Shown here: piece by piece, positions 19,368 to 50,220 of the stretch
How the letters are laid out: each line of letters starts with the position of its first letter
Position numbering within the stretch: the first letter of the stretch is position 1
Virus record (IMG/VR): IMGVR_UViG_3300032770_000029
Span: 1 to 50,256 of that record
From: a virus
Strand: one strand, 5' to 3'
Length of the DNA stretch: 50,256 bases
Notes under the pieces: model-generated
What the model saw: the letters and a program-made list of their open reading frames with translations, nothing else
Database searches by the model: none
What the model was told of the DNA's origin: nothing
Program-made: the position numbers and the translations under genes

Positions 19368-19724
19368 ATGAGAATCCTTCTCGTACTTCTCGCAATCGCA
19401 ACAAGTAGCTGCGCTCACCTGACCCGCTACGACGTCGAGGCGTGCGCGGACCTGGGACCTGACGGCGCTCACTGCGCTCATACGCTCACGCCCACCACGC
19501 GAGACATACCGAAGGCCCAATGGGACGCGACACGGGTCGGATGGTTTTGCGAGGACTCGGCGGATTTCAATAATGACCAGTCGGAATTAGATCAGGCGTG
19601 CGTGTGGATTTCATGCACCGAGGCCGAGCAAGCGGCCCTCACCTCGATCAAGCTGAAGCTCAAGGACCTCACAAGACGCGCAGTAGCCGCAAGAAAGAAG
19701 TACGGCAACCGTTTTGACCAATAG
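19368..19724 (+). CDS. Small lipoprotein-like protein, possible outer-membrane spanin
   Basis: 118 residues with AAAGGA upstream. The N-terminus MRILLVLLAIATSSCAHL looks like a signal-peptidase II leader with the modified Cys at residue 15; the -3 position is Thr, not the usual Leu. The mature part has five further Cys and a charged helical C-terminus. Phage lipoproteins in a late region are often o-spanins, but this one is larger than most and no matching i-spanin is clear. The last 56 bases overlap a gene on the other strand. Confidence 0.5.
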   Translation: MRILLVLLAIATSSCAHLTRYDVEACADLGPDGAHCAHTLTPTTRDIPKAQWDATRVGWFCEDSADFNNDQSELDQACVWISCTEAEQAALTSIKLKLKDLTRRAVAARKKYGNRFDQ

Positions 19725-19857
19725 TCGCGGTTGATTTGCAGTTCGGACAGGTGAAATAGAGAAGCTCCGTCTCACCGTCCATCGAGTGTCTGATAACTTT
19801 CAAAGCGTTTCTCGTCGTGATCGGTTTCCCGCAGCACGTACACTTTTTGATCGTCAT
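19669..19857 (-). CDS. Zinc-ribbon mini-protein with C-terminal FxxxLRxL motif
   Basis: 62 residues. Two CxxC pairs (CTCC near residue 6 and CPNC near residue 37) suggest a zinc ribbon; a further Cys is at CRTS. It ends SFLRLLRVL, the same F-x-x-x-L-[K/R]-x-[I/L] ending found in several leftward genes. The ATG follows directly on the TAA of the upstream gene, which supports co-translation. Its 3' end overlaps the rightward lipoprotein gene antisense by 56 bases. Function unknown. Confidence 0.55.
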   Translation of the reverse strand: MTIKKCTCCGKPITTRNALKVIRHSMDGETELLYFTCPNCKSTATIGQNGCRTSFLRLLRVL

Positions 19858-20292
19858 TTATTCCTCTGTCAGAGTGAACGATTTCGCGCTCGTATTTCCG
19901 AAGGTGCCGTCCGAGTCGTAGTTGGCCGAGAATGTCGGCGGGCTCGTGGACAGATCGCCTGAGAAAATGTAGGTATCACCGCCAGAGAAGTCCGTGAAAT
20001 TCTGCGTCCACGCACCGGACGATTTCACATAAAAACTCATCGTCGCCGTGTGGTTTGCCAAATCGCCGACCGCAGTCACGAAGGCACCGCCAGGGACCAT
20101 GATTATCTGCACACTCGCGAGGCATCCTGCGGCGGCATCGCCGAAGTTGTTCGCGCCTGAGCACGGATTCGAGTCGCTCCACGAATAAGCCTGATAGGTC
20201 GTCGGGTCGGTGCTGTTCAGGCCATTGCTGCCGTCTTTGCCATTCTGGGCACAGGCGGTCAAAAAGACCGCGAGAAAAATCAGCCATTTCAT
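19858..20292 (-). CDS. Lipoprotein, unknown function
   Basis: 144 residues. MKWLIFLAVFLTACAQNG is a clear lipoprotein leader with lipobox LTAC (Cys 14). It is followed by GKDGSNGLNS, a short collagen-like Gly repeat, and then a beta-rich Ser/Thr/Asp domain. AGGAGATCACA precedes the ATG, and the start overlaps the upstream stop (ATGA). It is read leftward with early-type genes, so superinfection exclusion or surface modification is a reasonable idea, but unproven. Confidence 0.6.
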   Translation of the reverse strand: MKWLIFLAVFLTACAQNGKDGSNGLNSTDPTTYQAYSWSDSNPCSGANNFGDAAAGCLASVQIIMVPGGAFVTAVGDLANHTATMSFYVKSSGAWTQNFTDFSGGDTYIFSGDLSTSPPTFSANYDSDGTFGNTSAKSFTLTEE

Positions 20293-20705: not shown

Positions 20706-20715
20706 AAATCACCTC

Positions 20716-20754: not shown

Positions 20755-20762
20755 TTTATCAG

Positions 20763-21083: not shown

Positions 21084-21097
21084 TCAGACGGTTGGTA

Positions 21098-21415
21098 TTA
21101 TTTACATTCTTTGAGATCGCTCAGAAACGTAGGCTTTCCGTGCATTTTGGGTTCGTCCATATGTGGATTCGCATCGCGTTCGGCGAAATGTAGGACCTGC
21201 TCGTCTATGTCGTACATCACTTTTTCGATCTCTGGAATCCGGTCAAAAGCGGCATCGCGCAAAACATCGAGAGCCTCTGCCAATCCGCCCTCACAGAGAA
21301 ATTCGACGGCGTGGGTGATCACCTCTGGGCGACCGCCAGTACGTCCGGCTTTTTCGAGTTTGAATGCGAGTCCGCGTCCGACACTCTTGGCTTCCTCGCG
21401 CAATTTCTTTGTCAC
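21098..21415 (-). CDS. Hypothetical protein with C-terminal FLSDLK motif
   Basis: 105 residues, GTG start with AGAGG 5 bases upstream. Helical throughout; ends TFLSDLKECK, one of the F-x-x-x-L-K endings shared by many genes here. It lies directly behind an intrinsic terminator (21427-21465), whose T-run ends just before its ribosome binding site, so expression needs read-through. No separate promoter is seen. Function unknown. Confidence 0.55.
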   Translation of the reverse strand: MTKKLREEAKSVGRGLAFKLEKAGRTGGRPEVITHAVEFLCEGGLAEALDVLRDAAFDRIPEIEKVMYDIDEQVLHFAERDANPHMDEPKMHGKPTFLSDLKECK

Positions 21416-21478: not shown

Positions 21479-21799
21479 TTACCGCTTTCGCGGTCGTCGG
21501 CTAAAACGCGACGTGGAGTTCTTGAATCTAATCCTCGGATTTATCTGCTTCTCGAATGCCGCAAAGTACGCCTCACGGTCCATACCTATCGACGCCGAAA
21601 AACATTCGTCTCTGAAATCGCAGATCGTACAATTCGAATCGTCCTGCTCCCAGAAACCAAAACACCCCTTCTTCCCATCGACCTCGCGGTCGTTGTAGTA
21701 AGCCCTCACAATCGCGGCTTCGAGATACTCGCGAGTCGCTTTCGGCGGGACGAATATCTCTTTGGCTTTGCAAAACTCGATCAGTCGCGAGAGCTTCAC
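21479..21799 (-). CDS. Hypothetical protein with SAP-like N-terminus and four-Cys cluster
   Basis: 106 residues. Residues 1-35 (LSRLIEFCKAKEIFVPPKAT then REYLEAAIVRAYYN) resemble a SAP-type helix-turn-helix DNA-binding motif. Residues about 46-68 hold C-x10-C-x2-C-x5-C, a likely metal site. The C-terminus is very basic (SRFSRRPRKR). A nucleic-acid-binding role fits. The start overlaps the upstream stop (ATGA), making it the third gene of the CobT-like operon. Confidence 0.55.
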   Translation of the reverse strand: MKLSRLIEFCKAKEIFVPPKATREYLEAAIVRAYYNDREVDGKKGCFGFWEQDDSNCTICDFRDECFSASIGMDREAYFAAFEKQINPRIRFKNSTSRFSRRPRKR

Positions 21800-22083
21800 A
21801 GGTTTTTCAACTCCTCTCGGAATGTGAGGTCCTTCCTCGTGACCTCACTCAGCAAGTTCGGGTGGACCTCGGTCTTGAAAAACTCCGCGAGCTTGTCCGG
21901 GTCCGCTGCCATGCTGAGATATCTCTGAGCGGCGTACTTCCGCGTGCGAAAATCGTTCTTGCCCTGATAGAGTTTCCCGTCCAACTCGAAGTAGACGCGC
22001 CAGTGATTTTCAAAAAGCCGCTCCACGAGGAGCGGCGTGATACCGAGTCGGAAGACCTTGCTATTCACGCGGCGGAATTTCAT
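21796..22083 (-). CDS. Hypothetical protein with C-terminal FREELKNL motif
   Basis: 95 residues, ATG overlapping the VWA gene stop (ATGA). Mixed alpha/beta with a short YFELDGKLYQGKNDF segment. It ends TFREELKNL, a member of the shared F-x-x-x-L-K-x-[I/L] set. Co-translation with the VWA protein suggests a common process. No family recognised. Confidence 0.55.
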   Translation of the reverse strand: MKFRRVNSKVFRLGITPLLVERLFENHWRVYFELDGKLYQGKNDFRTRKYAAQRYLSMAADPDKLAEFFKTEVHPNLLSEVTRKDLTFREELKNL

Positions 22084-23861
22084 TTGCCTGACTCCAGCAT
22101 TTTCGCGATCTTATTCATCGCCTGTTTTGGCAGGTCTTTCGCGTCCTTCAAAATCACATAGTCAGGATAAAATTCTTTGACGTAATCAGTCTCGATGCCG
22201 ATGCCAATGACCTCGATGCCAAACTTGGTGATCTCGGCGATTCGTGCGCGGAGATCGGCTTGCAGCAATCCGAAATCCGTGTCGCCGGTCGCGGGCTGAC
22301 CGTCACTCAATACGATTAGGATTTTTCGCTTCTGCTTTTGCATCGAGAGCCGTTTCGCGGCCCACGCCAGACACTCACCGTCCGGGTTTTGCGAGCCGTT
22401 TTTCAGATTCGAGATACCGATGAGAGAGTTGCTGTCGAATGATTTGAATACATGCAGGTCCAGACGCTCGCCACGACGACCGAATCGACCTGACGAGCCG
22501 ATAGACGCCGCAGCGGAGCGGACTCGGTGATCGGGCTCTGAGCAGAATCCAGTCATTTCAAATCGGATGCCGAGAGCTTGCAGCGCCTCGCCGATAGCGA
22601 TACCGGCCTGACGAGCGACCTCGGTTTTGCGACCTGCCATAGAGCCAGAGAGATCGGTGAGGACCTCGACGGCGACATTATTGGTCTCGGTCTTCGTGTA
22701 CTCTCTGAAAATCTCGCGATACGATTTATCTGCGGCGAGTTTTGAGAGCGAGCGAGGATTAATGTGACCTCGTTCCTGCTCGGCTTTCCATTTCGCATTC
22801 TCACGGACTTTCAGCACGCGCTCCAGATGATTTTTCACGCCAGCGACGAGAGGCATCGCCTCACGCTTCGAGCGAGCATACTCTTTTGCATTTCCTTTGC
22901 CTGAGTGATCTGTGACTTTGTCGAATCGAGTCGTGACGGGAATGACTTTCGCCTTCCCCTTGCCACGAATCTCGTAGCGCATTTTGGACGCCTCTTTGTG
23001 CTCCTCGATGGCCTTGTCAGTGAAAGCCTCTTCCATCACGCCCTCGACGTCGATGATAAATTCGTGGAGTTTCTCGGTGCCCTTTTCGCCCTTCTTGCCG
23101 GTCATTAGCTTCAGCGTGTCGCCGTCTTTGATATCGGACGGGTCGCCAGGCTCACCGCTCGGCTCTTCGCCGGGCTCGCCCTTTTCGATTTTCACTTTCA
23201 CTTTTTTCGGCTCGCCCTTGCCGTCACCTTTGCCGGGTTTACCCTCGGCTTTCTTTTCGAGGTCGTGCTTCCCGTCGCCGGACTTCTTGTACTCCTCGAC
23301 GATTTTGCGGACGATACGCTCGGTAATCTCGCGGACCTCAGTCGTGGACTTCACGTCTGGGAGCAATTTCATCTCGTCTTCGATCAGGTCCATGTATTTG
23401 CGGAAGTCGTCGTCGATGCGGTGAGGACGGCCCTCGGTGATATCGCGGACTGTGGTGAGCAGGCGAATCGGCCACGGGCGCTTCATCCAGTCGTCATTCA
23501 TTTTCGCACGGAGTTTGTCATTCAGCGGGACCAGATTGAGCGCGGTGCCCGGATACATTTTCGCCATTTCTTTCTCTTGGCGATAGTCCTCGATGTTTTG
23601 CACGAAGAGATTGTGATACTCGGAGATGCACTTTTGCAGTTGGTCCATCTCGGTGAAGAGACAGTGACCGACCTCGTGATCGAGAAAACCCTGATAGTCG
23701 CGGTACATCTCTTCGGTGAGGTCGTTGTAGACCGGCATGAAAATCGTCTTGCCGTCCGTGCAGGGAATGTTGCCTTCAAAAACGATATTCACGCCGTACT
23801 GTCGGGCCAAGATGCGAGCCAGCTTTTCGAGCGACGTCTCAAAAATATTTGTGGTTAGCAT
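22080..23861 (-). CDS. CobT-like VWA-domain protein with N-terminal HExxH
   Basis: 593 residues. The N-terminus has HEVGH (residues 62-66), a zinc-metallopeptidase-like motif. A Lys/Glu/Gly/Pro-rich linker spans about 193-260. The C-terminal von Willebrand A domain has the MIDAS motif DLSGSM (403-408) and a later VLSDGQPA. This is the architecture of CobT, the VWA partner of the AAA+ protein CobS in cobaltochelatase-type and MoxR-VWA complexes. The CobS-like gene lies next to it. CobT/CobS pairs occur in some large phages, where their substrate is unknown; remodelling of a protein complex is more likely than cobalt insertion. AAAGGTG precedes the ATG. Confidence 0.85.
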   Translation of the reverse strand: MLTTNIFETSLEKLARILARQYGVNIVFEGNIPCTDGKTIFMPVYNDLTEEMYRDYQGFLDHEVGHCLFTEMDQLQKCISEYHNLFVQNIEDYRQEKEMAKMYPGTALNLVPLNDKLRAKMNDDWMKRPWPIRLLTTVRDITEGRPHRIDDDFRKYMDLIEDEMKLLPDVKSTTEVREITERIVRKIVEEYKKSGDGKHDLEKKAEGKPGKGDGKGEPKKVKVKIEKGEPGEEPSGEPGDPSDIKDGDTLKLMTGKKGEKGTEKLHEFIIDVEGVMEEAFTDKAIEEHKEASKMRYEIRGKGKAKVIPVTTRFDKVTDHSGKGNAKEYARSKREAMPLVAGVKNHLERVLKVRENAKWKAEQERGHINPRSLSKLAADKSYREIFREYTKTETNNVAVEVLTDLSGSMAGRKTEVARQAGIAIGEALQALGIRFEMTGFCSEPDHRVRSAAASIGSSGRFGRRGERLDLHVFKSFDSNSLIGISNLKNGSQNPDGECLAWAAKRLSMQKQKRKILIVLSDGQPATGDTDFGLLQADLRARIAEITKFGIEVIGIGIETDYVKEFYPDYVILKDAKDLPKQAMNKIAKMLESGK

Positions 23862-23882
23862 ATATCACCTTTCACGTTTTAG

Positions 23883-23920
23883 CCTGATCTCAGTGTACGA
23901 CACTGTAGGACAGAAGTCAA
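23883..23920 (-). promoter_or_regulatory. Leftward promoter with operator units (copy 3)
   Basis: On the minus strand: TTGACT (23915-23920), 17-base spacer, TACACT (23892-23897). Units TGTCCTACAG, TGTCGTACAC and TGAGATCAGG span 23883-23912; the inner palindrome is CAGTGT-ACG-ACACTG. It is followed by a conserved leader (GCTAAAACG...AAAGGTG) and the CobT-like start at 23861. A stem-loop AAGGCG / CGCCTT (23919-23951) just upstream could end the CobS transcript. Confidence 0.8.
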
Positions 23921-23976
23921 GGCGGCAGAATCCGTACAGATTTGTCGCCTTGGACTCTATACCACGCGACGGACTC

Positions 23977-25059
23977 TCATTTCTGAGGCCCGCCGATCAT
24001 AATTCTCTGAATGAGACCCTTGATCACCTCGGCGTCTTCTTTCGAGACCTTCGAGAAAATCGTGGCTGAGGCAGCACGGAAAGGTGCATCGGCGTGCTCT
24101 TTATATCGAATCATCATTTCGGCCCAATCGAGCATCCGACGAGTCGAGAAGGTGCAGGACACTTCCTCGTTTTTGAAAGCATCTCTGATCATACCGGCGA
24201 CCCGGACGATCACGCCAGCGACCTTCGGAGTCATTCGCGGAATCGTATTGACCAGGATTTTCGCTTCCTCGTCTGCCGGGAGATAGTCTATATGGTACAC
24301 TCTCCAGCGGTCGAGAAAAGCCTCGTTCATAATGTTGGTGCCCTGATAGAGCGAGCGATAGGCCGACATGCAACCGACCGCATTCGCAGTCGCGAAGAGT
24401 CGGAAATTCTCGTGCGGTACGACTATCTCGTGGCCTTTTTCTTTGAGCATGAGCTTCCCGCCCGGCTCCAGCACGGCATTGAGGACCGAAAGAATCGCAG
24501 GCTCGGCGAAATCCAATTCATCGACGATAAGCCAATAGCCCTCACGCATCGCTTTCGGCAAAGTCCCATCGACCCACACGGTCTCACCGCCCTTGACGGT
24601 CCACATGCCGACGAAATCGCCGACCGTGGTCTGACCATTCATATTCACGCGGAGCACGCCCTGATTTGTGCGAGCGGCAACTTGCTCGATACGCGAGGTT
24701 TTGCCGGTGCCAGTGTGCCCGACGAGCATCACGCGGCGGTTTTCTTTGATATCGGTGCAGATATCCTCGTCAAATGTCGCAAAGACATAGCCCGGATTCA
24801 GCTTCGGTATGAATTCCATCGTCCCGGTGCGGACGGGCATTTCGGCATTTCGGATTTTTATAGTGTCAGACACGCTGTCCCCCTTGCGCTTCTTTTCAGT
24901 CTTCTCCGGTGCTACGACGTCGTCAATGTCCGCGCCGTACTTCTCCATATACGCTTCAAGCGCCTTCGTGCCGTCTTTAGCGAGATCGGCGTGCTCGCGC
25001 TCGATATGATCGACTATCTGAGTCGCGTGTTTATGTCCGCAAACTTTGCATGTCAACAT
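23977..25059 (-). CDS. CobS/MoxR-like AAA+ ATPase with N-terminal C2H2 zinc finger
   Basis: 360 residues. Residues 4-23 hold CKVCGHKH then a helix and HIEREH, a C2H2-type finger. Residues about 65 onward form a AAA+ module: Walker A GHTGTGKT (114-121), Walker B LIVDELD (about 177-183), sensor-like FRLFATANAVG. The order and the VDELDFAEP segment fit CobS/MoxR ATPases. It works by family with a VWA protein, here 22080-23861. It has its own promoter without the operator units, so the partners may be made at different levels. Confidence 0.85.
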   Translation of the reverse strand: MLTCKVCGHKHATQIVDHIEREHADLAKDGTKALEAYMEKYGADIDDVVAPEKTEKKRKGDSVSDTIKIRNAEMPVRTGTMEFIPKLNPGYVFATFDEDICTDIKENRRVMLVGHTGTGKTSRIEQVAARTNQGVLRVNMNGQTTVGDFVGMWTVKGGETVWVDGTLPKAMREGYWLIVDELDFAEPAILSVLNAVLEPGGKLMLKEKGHEIVVPHENFRLFATANAVGCMSAYRSLYQGTNIMNEAFLDRWRVYHIDYLPADEEAKILVNTIPRMTPKVAGVIVRVAGMIRDAFKNEEVSCTFSTRRMLDWAEMMIRYKEHADAPFRAASATIFSKVSKEDAEVIKGLIQRIMIGGPQK

Positions 25060-25380: not shown

Positions 25381-26236
25381 TTGCGATCTCCCTATTTGTA
25401 AGATACGCGCAGACACACTCTGCCATCGTACTGTCGTGTATGTCTAGCACTTTTCGGAGCGGCTCTTGGTATCCGCCCGCTAAATTCCAAGCAACTGCTA
25501 TCTCCAGCCGCTTGCAAACCTCAAACACAATCCTGTCTCGCCGACGCATCTGCTCAGAAGTCAGCGTCCCGCCGAGCGGGTCATTGACATGCGGGTCCGC
25601 ACCGGCCTGATAGAGTAACACGTCACAATCCTGAAATCTCGACACGATTTTCGGAAATTCCTTGAGCCATTCCTCGGCGGTGGACTTGGTGATATTTTCG
25701 CCGCCGAATGTCCAGTGACGAACCGAGTCTTCGAGGCCGAGCTTTTTGATTATGTCCTCTTGACCATTACCGAAATGGGCATCGCAATCGAGTATTCCGA
25801 CCTTTTTCGCACCCTGGAGCCGGAGAGCCTGGACCGCGATCATAAGACCATTAAAAGTGCAGAAAGCGCCAGCGTGATTCCAGGTCGCGTGGTGGAAGCC
25901 GGACGTCGGGGACACCGCTACGCCGCCGTGCTTGAATACGTGGAGAGCGGCGCCAACCATCGAGCCAGTCGTGTATCTGACGGCCTTGGCGACCTCTGGA
26001 GAGCGATTCCCGAATCCATTGGCGGTTTCACACTTGAGGACCGCACGCACGAAGGCGGCGTCGTGGGCGAGCGCAATCTGGCTTGCCCTCAGCGGCACGA
26101 CATTGTGGAGCGAGATCGGAAACCCCTGGTCCAGCCAGGACCGGACCACATGGACCGGCTTTCCCGCGCTCGGCGAGAAAGACTGATTCTCGTGGACGGT
26201 CTGCTCTGGACTGTAAAATACTGGTATCGTTTTCAT
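25298..26236 (-). CDS. Histone deacetylase / acetylpolyamine amidohydrolase family protein
   Basis: 312 residues. The catalytic set of zinc deacetylases is present: GFHHA (His 115-116), zinc ligands in ILDCDAHFGNG (Asp 152, His 154) and GADPH (Asp 214), LGG after DP, and the active-site Tyr in AGGY (Tyr 256). One usual His is Phe (DAHFGNG instead of DxHHGNG). By family it removes acetyl groups from lysine side chains, polyamines or other acyl amides. The last 28 residues lie over the RHH gene and are charged, so they may be a tail. The start overlaps the upstream stop (ATGA). Confidence 0.85.
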   Translation of the reverse strand: MKTIPVFYSPEQTVHENQSFSPSAGKPVHVVRSWLDQGFPISLHNVVPLRASQIALAHDAAFVRAVLKCETANGFGNRSPEVAKAVRYTTGSMVGAALHVFKHGGVAVSPTSGFHHATWNHAGAFCTFNGLMIAVQALRLQGAKKVGILDCDAHFGNGQEDIIKKLGLEDSVRHWTFGGENITKSTAEEWLKEFPKIVSRFQDCDVLLYQAGADPHVNDPLGGTLTSEQMRRRDRIVFEVCKRLEIAVAWNLAGGYQEPLRKVLDIHDSTMAECVCAYLTNREIANEKDRKSDREKGSQKGHDHHSVRARMG

Positions 26237-27090
26237 AACCCCCTCAGCAATCCGCTGAACTCGCTGGGGTCCACAATGTCGGCGGATTTCGCCAACATCT
26301 CATTGAGGACAGCTTCGACAGCCTTCAGCTTGTGTTTGACCTCACTCGCCTTCGAGCGGAGATTTTTCTCGTGCAATCTGATTTTCGCGACCACGACCTG
26401 AGCATCCTCGCAGCGGCTTTCGATTTGCCTACGAGTCACCGGCACGCCTTTCGCGAATTTGTCTTCGACCTCTTTCACGATCTCGTCGATATCGCCGAAA
26501 ATCTTTGCAGACGTCGCGTCTTCGAGAGCGATGAGAGTTGCCGAGTCGTCGTAGATCGGGACCTCGTAGAAAATCGTTTTGCCTGGGAATTTGCCGAAGA
26601 GATCGCGCAGTTTTGGCAGACATTTGGCTTCCAGGTCATTATCGACAAAGTAGATTCCGCCGCCCGGTCGCATCGAGACCCCGCCGCGCTCCTCGACATA
26701 ATCGAGCACCACGCGCCGGAACTGGTCAGAGTTTAGCGTGTCCTTGGCGAGATCATACGCCTTTTTGATCGGCGTCACGTCCCAGCCTTCGGGTGATCGG
26801 TGCGACGCCGCGCCGGTCGTCTTATCGACCGTGATGATCGCCTCTTTGCGGACGGTATAGTCGGTGGACGTCGGATTCTCGATCAGGATTGCAAAACTCA
26901 CCGAGGCCGATGTGTCATTAAATCGACGGTACATTTTCTCTTCGCCCTTCACGTACTCGCGAATGGCCTTGAGCATCGCCGTGCGATAGTCGTTTCGCGG
27001 CACGAAGTCCTCGAAACCTGCGCTCGAAATCTCTTCGGTCGTCGTGTTGAAATCAGAGACCGACCAGTAAATCAGCGTGCCCTTTTTCAT
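26233..27090 (-). CDS. Hypothetical protein, coiled-coil C-terminus, FSGLLRGL ending
   Basis: 285 residues from the ATG at 27090, which overlaps the upstream TGA and has a GGGGGGACGA site; a start 4 codons earlier is possible. The N-terminal 190 residues are alpha/beta (TLIYWSVSDF, GGGIYFVDND, KTIFYEVPIYDD). Residues about 195-270 form a charged coiled coil. It ends EFSGLLRGL, part of the shared C-terminal motif set. I do not recognise the family. It is coupled to the deacetylase gene. Confidence 0.6.
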   Translation of the reverse strand: MKKGTLIYWSVSDFNTTTEEISSAGFEDFVPRNDYRTAMLKAIREYVKGEEKMYRRFNDTSASVSFAILIENPTSTDYTVRKEAIITVDKTTGAASHRSPEGWDVTPIKKAYDLAKDTLNSDQFRRVVLDYVEERGGVSMRPGGGIYFVDNDLEAKCLPKLRDLFGKFPGKTIFYEVPIYDDSATLIALEDATSAKIFGDIDEIVKEVEDKFAKGVPVTRRQIESRCEDAQVVVAKIRLHEKNLRSKASEVKHKLKAVEAVLNEMLAKSADIVDPSEFSGLLRGL

Positions 27091-27446: not shown

Positions 27447-27484
27447 TCTGATTACAGTGTACGACACTGTACGACAGTAGTCAA
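27447..27484 (-). promoter_or_regulatory. Leftward promoter with operator units (copy 5)
   Basis: On the minus strand: TTGACT (27479-27484), 17-base spacer, TACACT (27456-27461). Units TGTCGTACAG, TGTCGTACAC and TGTAATCAGA span 27447-27476, with the palindrome ACAGTGT-ACG-ACACTGT at 27454-27470. The -35 overlaps the stop codon of the upstream operon. Drives the deacetylase/RHH operon. Confidence 0.8.
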
Positions 27485-27828
27485 TCGTCGATCTTTTTGA
27501 GGTCTGAGACGAAACTAGACGGCGGTGGGTCGGGCTGATTGTGCGTTTTTGAGAATTCGGATTCGGTCAGCGGCGGCTCTATCTGGATATCTCTGAAATT
27601 GGCACCGCAGAGTATTGAATCAATACGCTTCTCGACCTGAGAAAGCGGCCCGATCATAAGTGCCAGTTTGAGATCGGTCCTCAGCCGGTCGCGCTCCATT
27701 CTCCTGATCGCCCGGACGGTCCCAGGCATGAGAAACGAAAGCAAATACGCTAAGAGAGGCCCTCGCGGGCTACGTTTGCCCACGAGAGCGTCAAAAGCCC
27801 TGGACTCGTCAGTCGCGGGCGTTTTCAT
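27481..27828 (-). CDS. Hypothetical protein with C-terminal FVSDLKKI motif
   Basis: 115 residues; last gene of the ligase operon. Residues about 24-36 are hydrophobic (GPLLAYLLSFLMPGTV) and a basic helix follows. A Pro-rich linker (DPPPSS) precedes the ending SFVSDLKKIDD, which puts the shared motif on a flexible tail. ATG directly follows the upstream TAA. Function unknown. Confidence 0.55.
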   Translation of the reverse strand: MKTPATDESRAFDALVGKRSPRGPLLAYLLSFLMPGTVRAIRRMERDRLRTDLKLALMIGPLSQVEKRIDSILCGANFRDIQIEPPLTESEFSKTHNQPDPPPSSFVSDLKKIDD

Positions 27829-28135: not shown

Positions 28136-28513
28136 TTAAAAATCATCTACGTGAAACTCATCTCGAACGACTTTTGCGAGCGCCTGGTCGTAGTGGAACT
28201 CACGACCATTGAAGTAGCGGGGAATCAGTTTGATCACCTTCGGATTCATCCGACCGCCGTTTGGCATCCGCCAATGGGAGATCAGGATTTTATCGGGCGA
28301 CATGAATTTCGCAGCACTGCGGGCGCGATTGATGAATACCACAAACTCACCGACCGACATTTGATCGAGATTGATTTTCAGATTTTTCGCCTGCGCCGCG
28401 AGGCCGACGTGACCCGATCTCAGGTCGGCGTTGAAAACGATTTTCGCGAGCCGATTGTCGGTGCGGTCCCTCAGCCTCTCGACCGCTTGGGTGTAGACCT
28501 CTTCACTTTTCAT
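28136..28513 (-). CDS. Hypothetical protein
   Basis: 125 residues, ATG overlapping the end of the upstream gene by 11 bases. Helical N-terminus (EEVYTQAVERLRDRTDN), then mixed, with a basic segment HWRMPNGGRMNPKVIKL. It ends in acidic residues and Phe (DEFHVDDF). No domain recognised. Co-transcribed with ligase-operon genes. Confidence 0.5.
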   Translation of the reverse strand: MKSEEVYTQAVERLRDRTDNRLAKIVFNADLRSGHVGLAAQAKNLKINLDQMSVGEFVVFINRARSAAKFMSPDKILISHWRMPNGGRMNPKVIKLIPRYFNGREFHYDQALAKVVRDEFHVDDF

Positions 28514-42109: not shown

Positions 42110-42702
42110 GTATCGTCGGCGCCACGGGCACCGGCAAACATGAGATCAAAGACCTTCTCGTTCGCGAGGACTTCGAATATCTAGAGATTAAAGAGCCAGC
42201 CGAGCCGCACGTCGATCTCTTTGAGCGGCAGTTCCAGTTCTTCATGCAGCGGGTCTCGGTGCATCTCCAGGCTCAAGAGGTAATGAACAAACAGGACGTC
42301 GTGACCATCGGCAGCGTGTGGGACTCGATTGACGTCCACTATTGGAACCTCGTAAAAAATAAACTCGTGCCGACCGACAAAATTGCGTTGCACGATTACG
42401 CAGACACGGTTCTACTTCCAAGGCTCAAGTCACCACACTCGGTCATTTACTGTTTCACGGAGCCAATGACCGCGTTCAATCGAATGCAGCTTCGCGGCGG
42501 TATGAAGGTGACTCCAGCGGAGTACAACGTACAGATCGCGCTCTATAAAGAGTTCGTAAATAAAATTAAGGTCCCACTGATCGAGGTCGATTTCGGCCAG
42601 CCGATGGACCGGATTCTCAGAGACTTTGAATTCAACCTCGCGTCACTCAGGACTACGGCGGTGACAGCACAGTCCCTCTGGGACAGGAGTTTTCTCAAAT
42701 GA
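42100..42702 (+). CDS. Deoxynucleoside/nucleotide kinase-like protein
   Basis: 200 residues from the ATG at 42100, overlapping the HNH stop by 10 bases; the frame is open upstream but only within the HNH gene. P-loop GATGTGKH (residues 7-14) has His where Thr/Ser is usual. An EPAEP motif, a FQFFMQR helix and a LID-like Arg-rich segment (RMQLRGGMK) follow, as in deoxynucleoside kinases. By family it would phosphorylate deoxynucleosides for phage DNA synthesis. The odd P-loop and the missing classical ERS/DRS motif make activity uncertain. Confidence 0.6.
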   Translation: MWVSIVGATGTGKHEIKDLLVREDFEYLEIKEPAEPHVDLFERQFQFFMQRVSVHLQAQEVMNKQDVVTIGSVWDSIDVHYWNLVKNKLVPTDKIALHDYADTVLLPRLKSPHSVIYCFTEPMTAFNRMQLRGGMKVTPAEYNVQIALYKEFVNKIKVPLIEVDFGQPMDRILRDFEFNLASLRTTAVTAQSLWDRSFLK

Positions 42703-42974
42703 GTTTCGACTGGAATAAAAAGCGAATCGTCCAGCAACTAACACCCAACCGGACTATCGTGAATCTGCAACTCTCTCCGAAAGAGGTCATTGCAGCGGGG
42801 GGTAATCGGATAGACCAGAATCAAGTGATCGCATCGCTTTGTGCGGCGGTCGCTGAACTCATGTCGATTCAAGAATCACAAGCCGCAAGAATAGAATCAC
42901 TACTACAAACCTCAAAGGGGACAGCAGATGCAGTCGGAGAGCCAGTGTCAGAAGAGCCAGGTGGAACTCAATGA
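42699..42974 (+). CDS. Hypothetical protein
   Basis: 91 residues, overlapping the kinase-like stop (ATGA). Sequence starts SFDWNKKRIVQQLTPNRTIV and continues with a helix (ELMSIQESQAARIESLLQTS) and an acidic tail. No family recognised. It overlaps the next small gene by 47 bases. Confidence 0.5.
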   Translation: MSFDWNKKRIVQQLTPNRTIVNLQLSPKEVIAAGGNRIDQNQVIASLCAAVAELMSIQESQAARIESLLQTSKGTADAVGEPVSEEPGGTQ

Positions 42975-43113
42975 ACCGATTCAACTTGAATTTGATTTCA
43001 CTGAAGCTGAGTCGAACCAACTAGCACTGGAGTTCGACTATGTTCCTACATCTCCATTCACACACAGAAGCGTCGATAGCGGACGGTCTGTTCAGCCCGA
43101 AAAAGTGGGTTGA
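42928..43113 (+). CDS. Small protein with two sliding-clamp-like peptides
   Basis: 61 residues, AAAGGGG 7 bases before the ATG. It contains QLEFDF and, 12 residues later, QLALEFDY, both close to the bacterial beta-clamp-binding consensus QL[S/D]LF. The gene overlaps the start of the DnaE gene by 74 bases. A role in tethering polymerase or other proteins to a clamp is a reasonable hypothesis. The clamp gene is not in this window. Confidence 0.45.
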   Translation: MQSESQCQKSQVELNEPIQLEFDFTEAESNQLALEFDYVPTSPFTHRSVDSGRSVQPEKVG

Positions 43114-46100
43114 CGCTCTCAAGACAAAAGGTTTCAAGGCTCATGCGATAACGGACCACGGGACGATGGCGTCTCTGCTTCCGTTTTACAAACTCGCGAA
43201 GGCTGAGGGAATCACGCCGATCATGGGCGCGGAGTTTTACTACATTGACGACCCTCTCGGTCGCGGTGCAGAGTTTCGCAAAGCCTCTCACCTGATCGTG
43301 CTCGCGAAAAATTACGATGGTTTTCAAAACATGCTTCGTTTATCGAAGCTCTCGTACACCGACGGATATTACTACAAGCCGCGCATCGGCCTCGAATGGC
43401 TGAAGAAATACAAAGAGGGCCTCGTGGTCCTCTCGGCCTGTCAGGGCGGTGTCCTCTCGAATGAAATCTGGCGGGAGATTCACGACCAGCCACACATGGG
43501 TCTCGAAAAACGCTTCCGGCAGTTCGTAGATATTTTCGGCAAAGATTTTTACGTCGAGTTCCAGGGTCACAACACGCAATCGCTCGACAAAGAATCGGGT
43601 AAGCTGTTCAACTCCCAAGAGCTAATCAATCGCGGTTTATACGAACTCAGAAAAGAAAAAGGCTTCCAGCCTATTGTGACGAACGACTGTCACTACATTC
43701 TCAAAGAGCACGCGCCAATCCAGAAGGTGATCAAGGATATCAGCTACGGGAAAGCCGACTCAGCCGAGTCCTCGACAGTCACACAGGACCACGGGTGCGA
43801 TTCGCTATGGCTGAAGACCGACCGACAGGTGTTCCAGGCGTTCAGAGAAAACCACGAGTATTTGCCGGTCAGCTTCCTTAAGACGGGTTTCCAAAACGTC
43901 ACTGAGGTTTTTGAGAAAACCAAAGACTTTGAACTCCCGAAGGACAAGCGATACCTGCCGAAGTACCGCAAAGGCACGGACTCAAAGAAAATGCTCAAGT
44001 CTCTCGTGATGCAGAAATTTAAAGAGTTCATTGCCGAGAAAAAGAATCTCCGCGCACCGAAGGCTGACTATCTCGCTCGCGTGAAAAAAGAGATGAACGT
44101 GATTCTAAAGTACGGTCTCGAAGATTACTTCCTGATCGTGTGGGACCTGATCGCCTACGCGGAGAAGCGAAAAATCTATTCTGGCCTCGGTCGCGGTTCG
44201 GCGGCGGGCTGTCTCGTCTCGTACCTGCTCGGCATCGTGAAAATCGACCCTCTCGAATACAATCTACTCTTCGAGCGGTTCTTGAATGAAAATCGCTGCG
44301 AGTCGGGCGAACTGCCGGATATCGACCTCGACTTCGAGTCGAACCATCGCGGAGAGATCAAGGAGTACATCTACGCGACCTACGGCAAAGAGCATGTTTG
44401 CGAGATCGGCACCTATGGTCGTATGATGCTCAAGACCGCGCTCATCGACTTCGCGAAAGCGACCGGCGCCGCCACACACTCTGAAATCCTCGCGATCACC
44501 ACGAAGCTCGAACTCGAAAAAGAGGACGTTCACGATCTCGACGCGGCAATGGAGTTCGACCCGAAGCTCGCATCGCTGATCAAATCGAATCCGAAGCTCG
44601 GCTTCATGGTAAAAGAGATCGAGGGCCAGATCAAAACTCAAGGTATGCACCCGGCTGGCCTTGTGATCTGCTCGGAGCCGGTTCACGAGATCACACCGCT
44701 CAAAACGCTGAAGGACAATAAAAACAAAACCACCGAACGGATTCTCGCGACTCAGTCCGAGGACAAGCATATTATCGCGCAGGGCTTGATGAAGGTGGAC
44801 GTGCTCGGACTCAAAGAGTACGACGTGATCAAATACGTTCTTGAAAATGCAGATACAAAACTCACCTACGACAACTATGTCCGTCGCATCCTCGCCAGAG
44901 AACGGAAGGAACCGGATATGAAAGTCTGGGAGATGTTTCAGCGGGGGAAGACAGAGGGGGTCTTCCAGTTCGCGTCAGACGGCATGAAGGAATTGCTGAT
45001 CACGATGAAGCCGACCGAGATCAACGATTTGATCGCGGCAAACGCGCTCTATCGACCGGGCTGTCTGGAGAATGGTTGGCATATTGATTACTGCAATAGA
45101 AAAAACGGCACGGAATCCGTCAAATACATTCACTCGGATGTGAAAAAAGAACTGGGGGAGACTTATGGAATCATCGTGTACCAAGAGCAGTTCATGGAAG
45201 TCATTCATCGACTGGGAGGAATTTCCCTCGTCGATTCGGACATTATACGCTCTGCCCTTGGGAAAAAAGATAAAGACAAACTCAAAAAGTTTAGAGAGCG
45301 ATTTGTCAAAGGTGCATCTAAACGCATCGACAAAGAAAAAGCCGAGGCTCTCTGGGACCAGATCGAAAAGGCCAGCGGTTACACCTTCAACAAGTCACAT
45401 TCCGCTGCATACAGTGTCCTCGCCTACATCTCTCAGTATTTGAAGGTCAACTATCCGGCGCACTTCTGGGCGGCGCAACTCCATTGGGACATAAACAAAA
45501 ATAAGACCGAGGACATGCTGATCGACCGACGGGCGGCGCAGGAGATGGGTGTCGTGTACCGGCTCCCTGATATCAACGATTCGAAGCTCGACTTCGTCGT
45601 GACCAAGAAGCAGGAGATCGTGTGGTCGATCTCGTCGGTCAAAGGCGTCGGCCCGAAAGCGGCGCAAGCGATTGTTGCGGGTCAGCCCTATGAGTCGTTT
45701 GAGGATTTCTACACACGGGTCAACAAATCGGTCGTGAAGTACAACGTGATCGAGAGCCTGATCTACGCGGGTGCGTTCGATATGATGGACGACCGGCGCT
45801 CGGCGATCAAACAACTTACCGAGTTCCGCAGGAAGAAATCAAAGAAGGTCGCGGCCTACGTCACCCCGACCGAAGAACAAATGATGATGAAGTTCAAGGA
45901 CGCGCTGGGCTTTTTCGAGCGAAAAATCAAGGACCTCAAGGGAACCTTTTCGTCTGACGTCATTACCGAATCAGATTTGCGGGAAGCCTACGACAAAGAC
46001 CCTGTGGCGGTCGGCGGCGTTATCACAGATGTTCGGGTGATCAAAACTAAAAAGGGTGAGCCGATGGCTTTTGTGACGCTTATGGACCTCGATGAAATGA

Positions 46101-46243
46101 TCGACGTCACGGTGTTCCCGAAGGACTTCGTGGTCTATCGCAAATTCCTGCGGGAGAACAAGGTCGTCGAGATTCGTGGCACCAAGAACGTCTACAAAGA
46201 GCGTCAAAACGGAATAATCGCAAATTCTTTCGAAGAGCGATAA
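43040..46243 (+). CDS. dnaE: DNA polymerase III alpha subunit (DnaE, family C)
   Basis: 1067 residues, somewhat shorter than E. coli alpha (1160). An N-terminal PHP domain (LHLHSHTEASIADGLF, AITDHGT, GAEFY, NDCHY) keeps its metal ligands, so it may be an active proofreading nuclease. The palm has PDIDLDFES (Asp near 428 and 430) and KVDVLGLKEYDVI (third Asp near 587). A helix-hairpin-helix region and a C-terminal OB fold (AVGGVITDVRVIKTKKGEPM) follow. EEQMMMKF lies where E. coli alpha has its internal clamp-binding motif. This is the replicative polymerase of the phage. GGAG lies 8 bases before the ATG. Confidence 0.95.
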   Translation: MFLHLHSHTEASIADGLFSPKKWVDALKTKGFKAHAITDHGTMASLLPFYKLAKAEGITPIMGAEFYYIDDPLGRGAEFRKASHLIVLAKNYDGFQNMLRLSKLSYTDGYYYKPRIGLEWLKKYKEGLVVLSACQGGVLSNEIWREIHDQPHMGLEKRFRQFVDIFGKDFYVEFQGHNTQSLDKESGKLFNSQELINRGLYELRKEKGFQPIVTNDCHYILKEHAPIQKVIKDISYGKADSAESSTVTQDHGCDSLWLKTDRQVFQAFRENHEYLPVSFLKTGFQNVTEVFEKTKDFELPKDKRYLPKYRKGTDSKKMLKSLVMQKFKEFIAEKKNLRAPKADYLARVKKEMNVILKYGLEDYFLIVWDLIAYAEKRKIYSGLGRGSAAGCLVSYLLGIVKIDPLEYNLLFERFLNENRCESGELPDIDLDFESNHRGEIKEYIYATYGKEHVCEIGTYGRMMLKTALIDFAKATGAATHSEILAITTKLELEKEDVHDLDAAMEFDPKLASLIKSNPKLGFMVKEIEGQIKTQGMHPAGLVICSEPVHEITPLKTLKDNKNKTTERILATQSEDKHIIAQGLMKVDVLGLKEYDVIKYVLENADTKLTYDNYVRRILARERKEPDMKVWEMFQRGKTEGVFQFASDGMKELLITMKPTEINDLIAANALYRPGCLENGWHIDYCNRKNGTESVKYIHSDVKKELGETYGIIVYQEQFMEVIHRLGGISLVDSDIIRSALGKKDKDKLKKFRERFVKGASKRIDKEKAEALWDQIEKASGYTFNKSHSAAYSVLAYISQYLKVNYPAHFWAAQLHWDINKNKTEDMLIDRRAAQEMGVVYRLPDINDSKLDFVVTKKQEIVWSISSVKGVGPKAAQAIVAGQPYESFEDFYTRVNKSVVKYNVIESLIYAGAFDMMDDRRSAIKQLTEFRRKKSKKVAAYVTPTEEQMMMKFKDALGFFERKIKDLKGTFSSDVITESDLREAYDKDPVAVGGVITDVRVIKTKKGEPMAFVTLMDLDEMIDVTVFPKDFVVYRKFLRENKVVEIRGTKNVYKERQNGIIANSFEER

Positions 46244-46283: not shown

Positions 46284-46739
46284 ATGATGGCACGAGACTT
46301 AAGATACGAACTCGAAGGTCTGATACCTGAAAAGGTTCAACTGAGGCTCCGCAAGGACCTCAAAATCAGCGAGGACATAGATACCGAGGTTGATCACGCG
46401 GCGGTCAATTTTGGTTATTTCGCAATCCTCTCTGAGAAAGCCGACACACGGTATCACAAGGTCAAATTCTCATTCGAGGCGTGGATAGCAGAGACCGAGG
46501 CGAAAGCGTTTCGGAAGCGCCAGGCGGCGGGAGAGAAGCCGTTCACGGCGGACCAGATGAAGGCCCATGTCCGCTCTGACCCAAAGTATCGTGGCTTTCA
46601 GATGAAGCTCATCGAACTCGACGAGCAGAAACGGATTTTGAAGGTGATCGCTAAAGCCTTCGAGTTGAAAAAGGATATGGTTCAAACCAAAGCCTCAAAC
46701 CGACGCTCGGAGATCAGGCCGACGTTACCGAGTAAATAG
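46284..46739 (+). CDS. Helical protein, possible UvsY-like recombination mediator
   Basis: 151 residues; ATG at 46284 or 46287. A helical N-terminus is followed by AVNFGYFAILSEKADTRYHK, a charged middle (WIAETEAKAFRKRQAAGEKP) and a C-terminal helix. The layout (Y...L...R..K.K, then KPFT...VKAH) recalls T4 UvsY, and gp32-like and RecA-like genes follow. The resemblance is by pattern and context, without a diagnostic motif. Confidence 0.45.
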   Translation: MMARDLRYELEGLIPEKVQLRLRKDLKISEDIDTEVDHAAVNFGYFAILSEKADTRYHKVKFSFEAWIAETEAKAFRKRQAAGEKPFTADQMKAHVRSDPKYRGFQMKLIELDEQKRILKVIAKAFELKKDMVQTKASNRRSEIRPTLPSK

Positions 46740-46742: not shown

Positions 46743-47765
46743 ATGAAAATGCAAACTACGACCGAGACAACCAAAAAGACCAAGGGCAAACCGCCCAAGT
46801 TGAAAACGGCGGTGAAGAAGGCCGCCAAGAAGGTCGCCAAGGACACGAAGTCCAAAACGAAAACAAAAACGAAAACCGAAACCACCACCAAGGCACTCGC
46901 CATCGTCCCCCCAACTGTTCCCGTGACCGCTGCGGCTCGCAAGGAAGCTGAGAAGCGCATCGGTTCTGCCCGCGAGTGTCTGCTCCAGATGCACAAAAAT
47001 TGGTTTCTGTTCGCAAAGCATCTGAAGTCCATCCGCGACGAGAACGATGCTGAAAAATTCAAAGTCGAATCGTTCAACAAGCTCTGTCAGCGGGAGTTCC
47101 CAACCGTCGATCAGGCGGCGATCTCCAAAATGATCAACGTCGTCGAAAAAATGGGACCAGAGATCGAGCGCCGTATGAAGAGTCCGACCTATCTCGTGCC
47201 CTCAAGCGACGCTTGCTATTATCTGACCACATTGAAGCGTGTAAACCCGGACGGCACCGTTCACTATAAGGTCGCCGAATCAGAGTATGAGAAGCTCCAA
47301 AAGGAACTCCTCGACTCCGGCGCGGGCTCTCCTACGAAGTCCGAGCGCATGGGCTATGTCACTTTCAAAAAGCGCATCCAGGAGTTGATCGGCAAAGCCA
47401 AATCTAAACTCCGCGAAGAGATCAATGCCGAAACCGAAAAGTACGTCGAAGAAGAACAGCGCAAGCTCGATAAAGAGTTGCGCGACAATGGCATCCACGA
47501 TGAAGAGGAGATGCTGGACGAGGACGACTTCGAGTCGGAAGTCGAAGAGGTCGATTTCGAGGACGTAGACGAGGACGTGACTGAGCATGTTGCTGCGGCG
47601 TCTGTCGAGGCCCTCGCGATGCGGGTGGATTTTCTCATCGAGAATGTCCCGCCATTTGTAGAAGGTTTAAGTACGATTGACGGTAAGACGCGGGACCTCT
47701 TGAAGCGAATCAAGAAGCTCCAGACGATTCTCACCGAAACCATTGAAGCCCTCAGCGGCAATTAA
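46743..47765 (+). CDS. Hypothetical protein with Lys-rich N-terminus and acidic segment
   Basis: 340 residues. Residues 1-45 are a Lys/Thr repeat (KTKGKPPKLKTAVKKAAKKV), probably disordered and DNA-binding. A helical middle (about 60-150) follows. Residues about 225-285 form a charged coiled coil and an acidic run (DEEEMLDEDDFESEVEEVDF), then a final helix. No family recognised. It lies between the mediator-like gene and the SSB gene, so a replication or recombination role is likely. Confidence 0.5.
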   Translation: MKMQTTTETTKKTKGKPPKLKTAVKKAAKKVAKDTKSKTKTKTKTETTTKALAIVPPTVPVTAAARKEAEKRIGSARECLLQMHKNWFLFAKHLKSIRDENDAEKFKVESFNKLCQREFPTVDQAAISKMINVVEKMGPEIERRMKSPTYLVPSSDACYYLTTLKRVNPDGTVHYKVAESEYEKLQKELLDSGAGSPTKSERMGYVTFKKRIQELIGKAKSKLREEINAETEKYVEEEQRKLDKELRDNGIHDEEEMLDEDDFESEVEEVDFEDVDEDVTEHVAAASVEALAMRVDFLIENVPPFVEGLSTIDGKTRDLLKRIKKLQTILTETIEALSGN

Positions 47766-47776: not shown

Positions 47777-48975
47777 ATGGCCAAGAATAAAAAGCTACTC
47801 GCAAAGGTGCTGTCGGCGTCGAAGAAAGTCGTCGAAGAGCAGGAAGCGAACTCATCGAAGTTTGAGAAAATCGACTGGTTCATTCCGCAGGAAGGCAAAA
47901 CACGAATCCGTATTCTGCCGAACCCGAAGGACCCGGACACTCTTTTCTGGAAACAGGTCAACGTCCATTTCATGCCGGTGAAAAAGAAAGCCGGTGGAAC
48001 CGCTCGCATTCCGGTGCGCTGTTTGACGGATTTCGACGAGGTCTGTCCGCTGTGTCAGGCGTATGCGAAAATGATCAAGAGCAAGGACGAGGACGTTCAG
48101 AAGGACGCTCGCAATTTCAAAAGCGGCGTGAAGTATTTGATGAACGTGATCGTGTACGACGACGCCAAGGGCTCGGCATCGGTCAAACCATACGCTATGC
48201 AACCGTCAGTGTTCGCGGCTGTGTCCGAGATCATGCACGAGCAGGGTGACGAGGGCGCGATCTATGATCTCGACGAGGGTCGCGATCTGAAAATCATCCG
48301 CAAAACCAAAGGTGAGCGCACGGAATATCAGGTGCTCCCCGTGGCTTCAGACTCGGCGGTGCCGAACAAGCTGCGTCCGCTCCTCAAGAGTGCGATTGAT
48401 CTCGAAACTCTCTACACGGAGAGCGAAGAGAAACGTATGCGCGAGTACATCGAAGCTGTCGGTGTTGAACTGAGCGACGACGACGAGGACGAAGACGAGG
48501 ATATCAAGAAAAAGCCCGCGAAAAAGAAAAAGGGCAAGCCCGTCGAAGAGGACGAGGACGACGAAGTCGAAGACGACGACGATGCTGACGACGCCGACGA
48601 GGACGATGAAGAGGCCGACGAGTCTGACGACGACGAGGACGAAGACGAAGACTCTGACGACGATGAAGACGAGGACGCCGACGAAGACGAGGACGACGAT
48701 TCCGACGAGGACGAAGAAGACGACGAAGACGAGGACTCTGACGACGACGAGGATGAAGACGATGATTCCGACGAGGACGAAGAGGACGAGGACGACGAAG
48801 AAGACGAGGACGAAGAACCCAAGTCCAAATCCAAATCGGCTCGCGAGCGTGCAGCGGCGGCGAAAGCGAAGCTCAATAAAAAGGGCGCAGTAAAAAAAAA
48901 GCCGCTAAAAAAGACGAGTACGGAGACGAGCCGGACCCGGACCTAGAAAAAGAGTTTGAGGAGATGGGCATATGA
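47777..48975 (+). CDS. gp32-like single-strand DNA-binding protein, probable -1 frameshift at the C-terminus
   Basis: The unshifted product has 389 residues and ends at 48946. The N-terminal 220 residues match T4 gp32: KTRIRILPNPKDPDTLFWKQ, then zinc ligands His 64, Cys 82, Cys 90 and Cys 93 (VHFMP, RCLTDFDEVCPLC). Residues about 233-350 are an extremely long Asp/Glu run. After a basic segment the zero frame ends in SRTRT, while a -1 shift at A-AAA-AAG (48895-48901) gives KKDEYGDEPDPDLEKEFEEM and stops at 48975. That is a usual acidic SSB tail, and the stop overlaps the next start (ATGA). A homopolymer sequencing error would look the same. Confidence 0.85.
48895..48901 (+). promoter_or_regulatory. 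Slippery heptamer A-AAA-AAG with upstream SD-like AAGGG
   Basis: Within an A9 run in the zero frame GTA-AAA-AAA-AAG. AAGGG at 48881-48885 lies 9 bases upstream, close to the spacing of the internal Shine-Dalgarno that stimulates -1 shifting in E. coli dnaX. No strong downstream hairpin is seen. Confidence 0.55.
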
Positions 48976-49190
48976 AGTCTCCAGATCGAGTCAGCTATTC
49001 GTTCAATGTGAAAATTGGCCTGCCGAAGTTCTCTTCGGTGGGCTTCGACGTCGGCATGGAGTCAGACGTTCGAGAGGGTGAGACGACTGAAAAGGCGTTT
49101 CGGCGGGTCAAACGATTTGTTGAAGACCTCGCGGGGAAGGAAACCGATGAAATCCGAGCCAACTACAAAATCGACGAAGACGAAGAGTGA
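48972..49190 (+). CDS. Hypothetical protein
   Basis: 72 residues; ATG at 48972 overlaps the -1 frame stop of the SSB gene. Beta strands (SYSFNVKIGLPKFSSVGFDV) are followed by an acidic helix ending EDEE. GAGGAGATGGGC lies upstream. Overlaps the recombinase start by 44 bases. No family recognised; it may bind the recombinase or SSB. Confidence 0.5.
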   Translation: MKSPDRVSYSFNVKIGLPKFSSVGFDVGMESDVREGETTEKAFRRVKRFVEDLAGKETDEIRANYKIDEDEE

Positions 49191-50220
49191 AAAACGGATA
49201 ATCAAAATCCGTAAGAAAAAGCTGAAGCACACCTACGGCGACGACTTTTTCGGCGAGTTCGCTTCTGAGGCCAAGGAGTTTTTCAAAGACGAGGCGACGA
49301 TACCATCGGGTGAGGACGACCTGCTCATCGAAGTGAATGGCTGGATTCCGATGCCTGCTGAGATTTGTGCAATGATCGACGCGCCAGGTATTCCCTGCGG
49401 GCTGATCACGACAGCATTCGGTCCACCGGATTGCGGGAAGACGACGTTTGCCAATACGGTCCTGCTCAACGTGCAGAAAGAGGGCGGCGTCGCTGTCCTC
49501 GAAAAGACTGAGGACAAGTATTCCCTCAAACGTGCATCGGGCATGGGCATCGACGTGAAGAAAATGCTTATCCTGCGACCGAAGACCATCGAGCAGGTTG
49601 GCGACCATATGCAGACGCTCATCAACATGGTCAAAGCGAAGGGCTGGGAAGACCGCAAAATCGCGGTCGTCTGGGACTCTCTCGCGGCGACTCCGTGCGC
49701 GGCTGAGATGAACCCGAAGCGCAAGTCTGAGTTCTCGATGGATGCGGCGAAAGCAGTGCGCGGTATGCTGCGACGGGTGTCGGCTCTCATCAAGGAATCC
49801 AACATCGCGTTCGTGATCATCAATCAGGTGTACGACAATCTGAACTCGTTCGGAGAGAAAACCACACAATACGGCGGCAAGGGAGCGATCTATCATTCGG
49901 CTCTCATGCTCAAATTCGCTCAGAAGAATCGTATTCGTGCGGGCTCCAAGACCGAGGGAGACTTCTGCGGCATCAACGCGGTCGTCGAGGTAAAGAAGAA
50001 TCATTTGGGTCAGCCGTTTAAGACGGGCGAGTTCCGTATCGACTGGCGCGGTTTTATATTTGATCGAAAGGCGGAACTCGCACCGTCCTTTCTAAAAGAC
50101 TTATCTGACATAGAAGAGGACGACGAGGATGAATCAGCCGAACCCGTTGCAAAAGTACATACAGCAAAGAAAAAGCGACTTAAGAAAAAAGTACGAATCG
50201 CGGTATGCGAAACAGAATAG
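49147..50220 (+). CDS. RecA-family recombinase (UvsX-like)
   Basis: 357 residues from the ATG at 49147 (AAGGA 6 bases upstream). A basic N-terminus precedes Walker A GPPDCGKT (92-99), EKTED near residue 119, Walker B KIAVVWDSLAA (171-181), and VIINQVYDNL, the RecA motif leading into the DNA-binding loop. KNHLGQPFKTGEF resembles the C-terminal RecA segment. Near residue 310 there is SFLKDLSDIEED, similar to the C-terminal motif of other genes here. The last 31 residues overlap the next gene and are basic. Catalyses strand exchange, with SSB and a mediator as usual partners. Confidence 0.85.
   Translation: MKSEPTTKSTKTKSEKRIIKIRKKKLKHTYGDDFFGEFASEAKEFFKDEATIPSGEDDLLIEVNGWIPMPAEICAMIDAPGIPCGLITTAFGPPDCGKTTFANTVLLNVQKEGGVAVLEKTEDKYSLKRASGMGIDVKKMLILRPKTIEQVGDHMQTLINMVKAKGWEDRKIAVVWDSLAATPCAAEMNPKRKSEFSMDAAKAVRGMLRRVSALIKESNIAFVIINQVYDNLNSFGEKTTQYGGKGAIYHSALMLKFAQKNRIRAGSKTEGDFCGINAVVEVKKNHLGQPFKTGEFRIDWRGFIFDRKAELAPSFLKDLSDIEEDDEDESAEPVAKVHTAKKKRLKKKVRIAVCETE

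Follow-up and report, generated by a model that had tools for sequence, protein, structure and literature searches.

A peptide shared by the C-termini of unrelated proteins

Why do eleven proteins of one virus, which have no detectable similarity elsewhere, end in nearly the same peptide? The question concerns IMG/VR record IMGVR_UViG_3300032770_000029, a linear sequence of 50,256 bases that was analyzed at its full length and is referred to here as the window (W). The virion block, on the plus strand, extends to about 19.7 kb. It is followed by a replication operon on the minus strand (19.7-39.5 kb) and by a plus-strand operon at 40-50 kb that contains the dnaE, UvsY-like, SSB (single-stranded DNA-binding protein) and RecA genes. 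The shared peptide, hereafter the tag, is very probably a C-terminal docking motif with one common partner in each phage.

Ten tags had been named in an earlier note on this DNA, and all were found where it had placed them, in frame and immediately before a stop codon. Nine are encoded on the minus strand: SFLRLLRVL (19672-19698) ends a 62-amino acid (aa) Zn-ribbon-like protein (19669-19857), TFLSDLKECK (21101-21130) a 105-aa protein (21098-21415), TFREELKNL (21799-21825) a 95-aa protein (21796-22083), EFSGLLRGL (26236-26262) a DUF6744 protein (26233-27090), SFVSDLKKIDD (27484-27516) a 115-aa protein (27481-27828), NFMSELRKIK (30723-30752) a WGR-domain protein (30720-31016), GFLEALRRI (31724-31750) a 105-aa protein (31721-32038), TFSEALRKI (32413-32439) a 198-aa protein (32410-33006) and NFHLALNEL (34133-34159) a 113-aa protein (34130-34471). 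The tenth, GFLDALKEIPDDE (40286-40324), is encoded on the plus strand and ends a 103-aa protein (40016-40327). An eleventh tag had been missed: EFRKELRKL (41102-41128, plus strand) is a strict match at the end of a 58-aa protein, whose gene (40955-41131) overlaps each neighbour by four bases.

The proposed motif, F-x-x-x-L-[KR]-x-[IL], is strict in eight of the ten named peptides and loose in TFLSDLKECK, where C replaces the final I/L, and in NFHLALNEL, where N replaces K/R. Two further resemblances had been listed. The RecA/UvsX-like protein (49147-50220) does contain SFLKDLSDIEED, but 35 residues before its C-terminus, and the tag-like SFLKDLSDI of its acidic tail (50086-50112, plus strand) is not terminal; the “looser” EFIKKFLHEK of 28503-28778 fails the motif model described below.

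The frequency of the motif at C-termini is far above that in shuffled sequences. Nine of the 62 curated W proteins end in a strict match. When the last 25 residues of each protein were permuted in 20,000 trials, such matches averaged 0.022 and never exceeded 2. Internally, the strict motif occurs at 3 of the 15,506 positions tested. The carriers had been described as unrelated, and when the tag is disregarded no similarity between them can be detected.

More generally, the tag can be written as a short linear motif at the C-terminus, [STNDEG]-F-[LM]-x-[AED]-[LI]-[KRE]-x-[IL]-COOH. Held on a flexible linker, it would probably fold as an amphipathic helix of 8-9 residues, with F, L and I/L on one face and an N-cap residue ahead of them. 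Binding by one partner per phage would then gather about a dozen unrelated accessory proteins at one place.

Presence and absence of the tag in related genomes

Among the phages of the GenBank collection none shows DNA-level similarity to W, and scans of viral contigs with single proteins (the helicase and the CobT-like protein) gave no relatives. The clade was defined with the DnaE-type DNA polymerase (43040-46243, plus strand) as the query. The initial profile search yielded one relative, G001 (50% identity), and otherwise mostly unrelated DnaE phages, which were reused as controls. A two-sequence profile then recovered a clade of about 15 contigs with DnaE identities of 50-71%, set well apart from all other DnaE phages (at most 37%). 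A DnaE scan of genome contigs found no close relative, only bacterial DnaE proteins of at most 37% identity, mainly from Saccharibacteria and other Patescibacteria. Three contigs of the clade reach 104-115 kb, so W probably covers about half of a genome. All contigs are metagenomic and mostly incomplete. They were taken whole and their genes were called with our own script; errors in start calls are harmless here because C-termini depend on the stop codon alone.

Conservation of the tag in relatives was confirmed, with many unrelated proteins tagged in G003 (110 kb), G014 (60 kb), G015 (115 kb) and G001 (45 kb). A position-specific motif model, with its threshold at a 0.3% false rate, was trained on these four genomes and W. 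It is passed by 11/63 proteins of W, 19/142 of G003, 11/81 of G014, 11/152 of G015 and 8/76 of G001, counts that are partly circular and that, in the four relatives, include the SSB. More weight is therefore given to a model trained without SSB (see below) and to a forward test on G016, a new 108-kb relative, for which the model was frozen and the prediction written before the contig was fetched. Nine of its 128 proteins are tagged, against 0.38 expected; SSB and p340, a core protein described below, are two of the nine, and the WGR orthologue is one more by eye. Outside the training set the model is also passed in G002 (2/9), G007 (2/12) and G009 (1/6).

Other relatives are free of the tag by the same model: G005 (0/118), G010 (0/46) and G012 (0/20), a small set in which one genome is near complete. 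Among the unrelated DnaE control phages 24 of 2971 proteins pass, from a handful of families. Several of these phages (L145, L150, L151 and others) have isolated tag-like tails, one family near dnaE ending in SLFEIDLENL and another in NDLVSALKYI. Multiple tags were not seen outside the clade in Pseudomonas phage nickie (0/131), Stenotrophomonas phage ANB28 (2/75) or Lysinibacillus phage LysYB1 (0/28), and in the sampled parts of T4 (153 proteins) gp32 alone passes.

Presence or absence of the tag is a genome-wide trait, and orthologues follow their genome. WGR orthologues are tagged in all four cases, each in the spelling typical of its genome (NFMSELRKIK in W, EFLKALKKL in G003, MDILAELANI in G015 and NFMQQLRQI in G016), and these proteins can barely be aligned outside the WGR domain, yet the tag is kept. 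The DUF6744 family is tagged in W, G003 and G015 and untagged in the tag-less G010, and the G003 orthologue of the 32410-33006 protein ends in SFSEALKAIGE. The family of G015 51223-51600 carries the tag in G001, G014, G015, G016 and G018 and lacks it in G005, G012, G013 and G017. In G003 a nearly unbroken run of eight small tagged genes (49958-52902; L261:9958-12899) encodes proteins that are mutually unrelated except for the tag.

Genome-specific dialects

Each tagged genome spells the tag in its own way: F..AL..L in G003, FM.EL..I in G016, [FIV][LM].EL..[LI] in G015, FL.AL.EI in G001 and F...L[KR].[IL] in W. For tags on unrelated proteins, similarity within genomes exceeds that between genomes by 2.54 BLOSUM units (permutation sd 0.46; p=0.0002, the lowest value that this test can return), and by 1.99 at the five non-anchor positions. 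Composition is not behind these dialects, because internal F...L..[IL] sequences of the same genomes give 0.00 ± 0.19. Recent DNA copying of gene ends is likewise excluded as the origin, since identical tag residues use identical codons at the chance rate (in W, 66 versus 76 expected). On these sequence comparisons, the dialects are most simply read as the result of selection by a single partner in each phage, as co-evolution predicts.

The motif is short and amphipathic helix ends are common, so that convergent helix ends, or a recently copied 3′ gene end, might in principle produce such a pattern with no common function. The excess over shuffled sequences, the few families behind the control passes, the outcome in G016, the dialects beyond the composition control and the codon result make this extremely improbable. 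The earlier note had read the peptide as an amphipathic docking or sorting tag recognised by one phage component. Docking on one component fits well with the conservation in relatives, the genome-wide on/off pattern, the persistence on orthologues with diverged linkers and the dialect common to unrelated proteins; that the component is of phage origin and that the tag becomes an amphipathic helix on binding is what we infer.

A host factor would account for both the dialects and the on/off pattern by genome. On this explanation the tag docks on the bacterial clamp, RNA polymerase, a chaperone or a protease adaptor, and the dialects follow the hosts. It agrees with the presence/absence comparison, in which none of the phage gene families was confined strictly to tagged genomes. 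The tags do not, however, fit the bacterial clamp motif QL[SD]LF, having no Q before the hydrophobic pair, and the tag-like tails of SSB and p340 would require a separate reason. We regard a host factor as unlikely, if the least so of the partners and functions proposed in place of the one favoured below.

The short, C-terminal and amphipathic character of the tag would also suit a degron or a MinD-type membrane anchor. Of the five genomes tested, however, four have tags with a negative mean net charge (-0.56 in G003, -1.5 in G014, -2.2 in G015 and -1.4 in G001, with +0.55 in W), which is ill suited to a lipid anchor, and lipid binding would not be expected to give dialects. A C-degron is poorly matched by so strict a spacing of F, L and I, after which as many as four extra polar residues may follow. 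Either function therefore appears very improbable.

Carriers of the tag and the virion block

The carriers are mostly proteins of 50-200 residues with a hydrophilic stretch ahead of the tag. In family scans of 52 tagged proteins the sole firm domain assignments were WGR and DUF6744, and one or two tagged proteins gave weak baseplate-family matches. Four genomes have a clearly recognizable virion block, within which 1 of 159 genes is tagged, versus 48 of 326 elsewhere (Fisher p=3e-8). The sole tagged gene counted in the block (19669-19857) belongs to the adjoining minus-strand operon.

The earlier note had invoked the T4 capsid-targeting sequence (CTS) as a precedent, and a C-terminal counterpart of it could direct carriers into the prohead for injection with the DNA. 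Many small, unrelated, non-virion carriers are indeed what ejected internal proteins look like, T4 provides a precedent (PMC7697877 and related reviews), a tagged gene is flanked by terminase and portal in both G014 (35205-35381) and G001 (35945-36211), and the baseplate-family matches point the same way. Nevertheless, in the clade the tag was not seen on any gene for a scaffold, a protease or a capsid protein, the virion block is practically free of it, and the tags are located in replication operons. The T4 CTS is N-terminal and cleaved, and packaging leaves the resemblance to SSB tails unexplained. The analogy thus found no direct support, the closest resemblance being to the tail of the gp32-type SSB, and we consider head packaging improbable.

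Resemblance to SSB tails and candidate partners

The gp32-type SSB of W (47777-48946, plus strand; Pfam gp32, E=6e-16; phrog_1192) has a frame that is apparently broken at an A9 run (48892-48900). Beyond this run the other frame reads DPDLEKEFEEMGI and provides the tail DLEKEFEEMGI (48940-48972, plus strand), which is homologous to the SSB tails of relatives and whose stop codon overlaps the start of 48972-49190. The break may be an assembly error or a programmed frameshift. Nearly all relatives have an SSB ending in D-[LF]-x-x-E-L-x-x-L-G-[VIM], and the C-terminal 1-5-8 hydrophobic helix pattern is thus present in the SSB itself. With the model trained without SSB, 11 of the 17 complete tails rank in the top 1.3% of untagged clade proteins. 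The SSBs of nickie and ANB28 end similarly, T4 gp32 ends in DLDDLLNDL, and T4 UvsX has DLETDLEQL near its end. The gene preceding that of SSB encodes p340 (46743-47765, plus strand), a core protein of the DnaE-SSB cluster with a tag-like C-terminus in many relatives (DNFLTSLEKL, DNFLDHLDEIGKED). The 72-aa protein of 48972-49190, whose gene is coupled between those of SSB and RecA, occurs in seven clade members.

In T4 the C-terminal domain of gp32 is a docking site for UvsX, UvsY, gp59 and Dda (PMC3016280, PMC11551737). A candidate hub of the same kind in W is p151 (46284-46739, plus strand), with a predicted fold like that of T4 UvsY; its top 19 Foldseek matches are all T4 UvsY (TM up to 0.61/0.72, E about 1.6e-3). 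The clade also has a RecA-like recombinase, an SbcD-like subunit and a Holliday-junction resolvase, and 36819-38186 encodes what we take, by eye, to be a UvsW-like protein. Nickie gp100 (L289:7461-8741) has the size of phrog_1069, whose profile contains a p151-like domain at its C-terminal end; the disordered N-terminal half of gp100 includes three internal copies resembling SSB tails (ELEALLSGL, ELAALAEL and ELEALLAAV).

The partner that we favour, tentatively and at slightly less than an even chance, would belong to the phage's own T4-type replication-recombination machinery and would also read the tail of the gp32-type SSB (and that of p340); candidates are the UvsY-like p151, the UvsX/RecA-like recombinase and DnaE. 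In that case the tags would be borrowed SSB tails recruiting small early or middle proteins (WGR, DUF6744, Zn-ribbon and others) to single-stranded DNA or to the replication focus. A reader of this kind would account for the tag's shape, for where its carriers are encoded and for the way in which SSB and p340 end.

Several observations weigh against such a reader. The SSB tail of W scores poorly in the motif model, and T4 gp32 scores no better than the top 2%. SSB tails are led by L, not F, and have the G-[VIM] extension; they also depart from the local dialect (G003 tags have A at position 4, where G003 SSB has E). The tail is present without tags in G010 and G012, and UvsY and UvsX candidates occur in the tag-less G005 too. 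The resemblance of p340 is uneven, with 4 of 18 proteins in the top 0.2% and the others poor. Off-dialect SSB tails, and phages with the tail but without tags, are left unexplained.

A partner outside the recombination set was also considered, the foremost candidate being p91 (42699-42974, plus strand), a small protein encoded just upstream of dnaE. It occurs in seven genomes, all tagged (W, G002, G003, G007, G014, G015 and G016), and not in the tag-less G005 and G010. It is, however, missing from the tagged G001 and G009, its predicted fold is a hairpin plus one long helix with no obvious groove (low confidence, pLDDT 73), and a structure search gave no relative. We therefore judge p91, or another phage protein of this sort, a rather improbable partner. 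A sliding clamp was rejected: G003 53004-53834, the one mid-size core protein still without an explanation, reads by eye less like a clamp than like a small terminase, and the T4 gp33 tail falls far below the model threshold.

More broadly, and with nearly as much for it as against it, the tag may be seen as a private addressing code, a C-terminal peptide with one dialect per phage that sends unrelated accessory proteins to one phage-encoded site. The site could be a replication focus or a different compartment, and acquisition of the tag would bring small host-takeover genes into the set.

Other features of the clade

The 25298-26236 gene of the window reads like a histone-deacetylase-type amidohydrolase; it is conserved in W, G003, G005, G010 and G015 and is unusual in a phage core. 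A CobT/CobS-like pair of VWA and MoxR ATPase proteins (22080-25059) is conserved in the clade and also found in distant phages (nickie, CRP-810). The RecA of G014 (L277:6927-8918) has an intein inside its Walker A motif (GKKDC...VVHNC). Other oversized proteins probably contain inteins as well: DnaE of G007, G014 and G016 (1353-1425 aa), RecA of G010 and an SbcC-like gene product of G014.

Significance and comparison with known systems

Our literature searches found no earlier description of such a tag, and the results suggest that a group of uncultured bacterial viruses has a common, not previously described docking site in the infected cell. We know of no function for most small phage genes. 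The tag is present on up to about 13-17% of the proteins of a contig; if these all act at a single place, many would thereby receive their first functional assignment. It is also a sequence-only handle for finding the receptor. The dialect effect would be a clean case in which a single receptor co-evolves with many unrelated ligands, and the short peptide could find use in bacteria as an orthogonal tag for recruitment.

Several known systems offer partial parallels. The MinD-type membrane helix differs in its net basic charge, the tags of G003, G014, G015 and G001 being negative on average. Encapsulin cargo-loading peptides are likewise C-terminal amphipathic peptides on unrelated cargo, but there is no encapsulin here and a link to the virion was not seen. 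Peptides that bind clamps or PCNA (the PIP box, bacterial QLSLF and the tails of T4 gp33, gp55 and gp43) are also short, often C-terminal, and bring many proteins to one replication hub; the tags differ in having neither Q at the required place nor a terminal aromatic pair. The T4 CTS is, like the tag, a short peptide common to unrelated phage proteins, but it is located at the N-terminus and cleaved off by the prohead protease, whereas the tags are all C-terminal and their carriers lie outside the virion block. The T4 gp32 A-domain tail and E. coli SSB-Ct exemplify a short C-terminal acidic-hydrophobic SSB tail that binds many partners; the DLDDLLNDL of gp32 has the 1-5-8 hydrophobic spacing of the tag, and the SSB of W belongs to the same Pfam family. 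In contrast, the tags are led by F and are not necessarily acidic (acidic in G003, G014, G015 and G001, slightly basic in W). Moreover, in the gp32 and SSB systems one tail meets many partners, whereas in these phages many proteins carry a tail-like peptide and presumably meet one partner.

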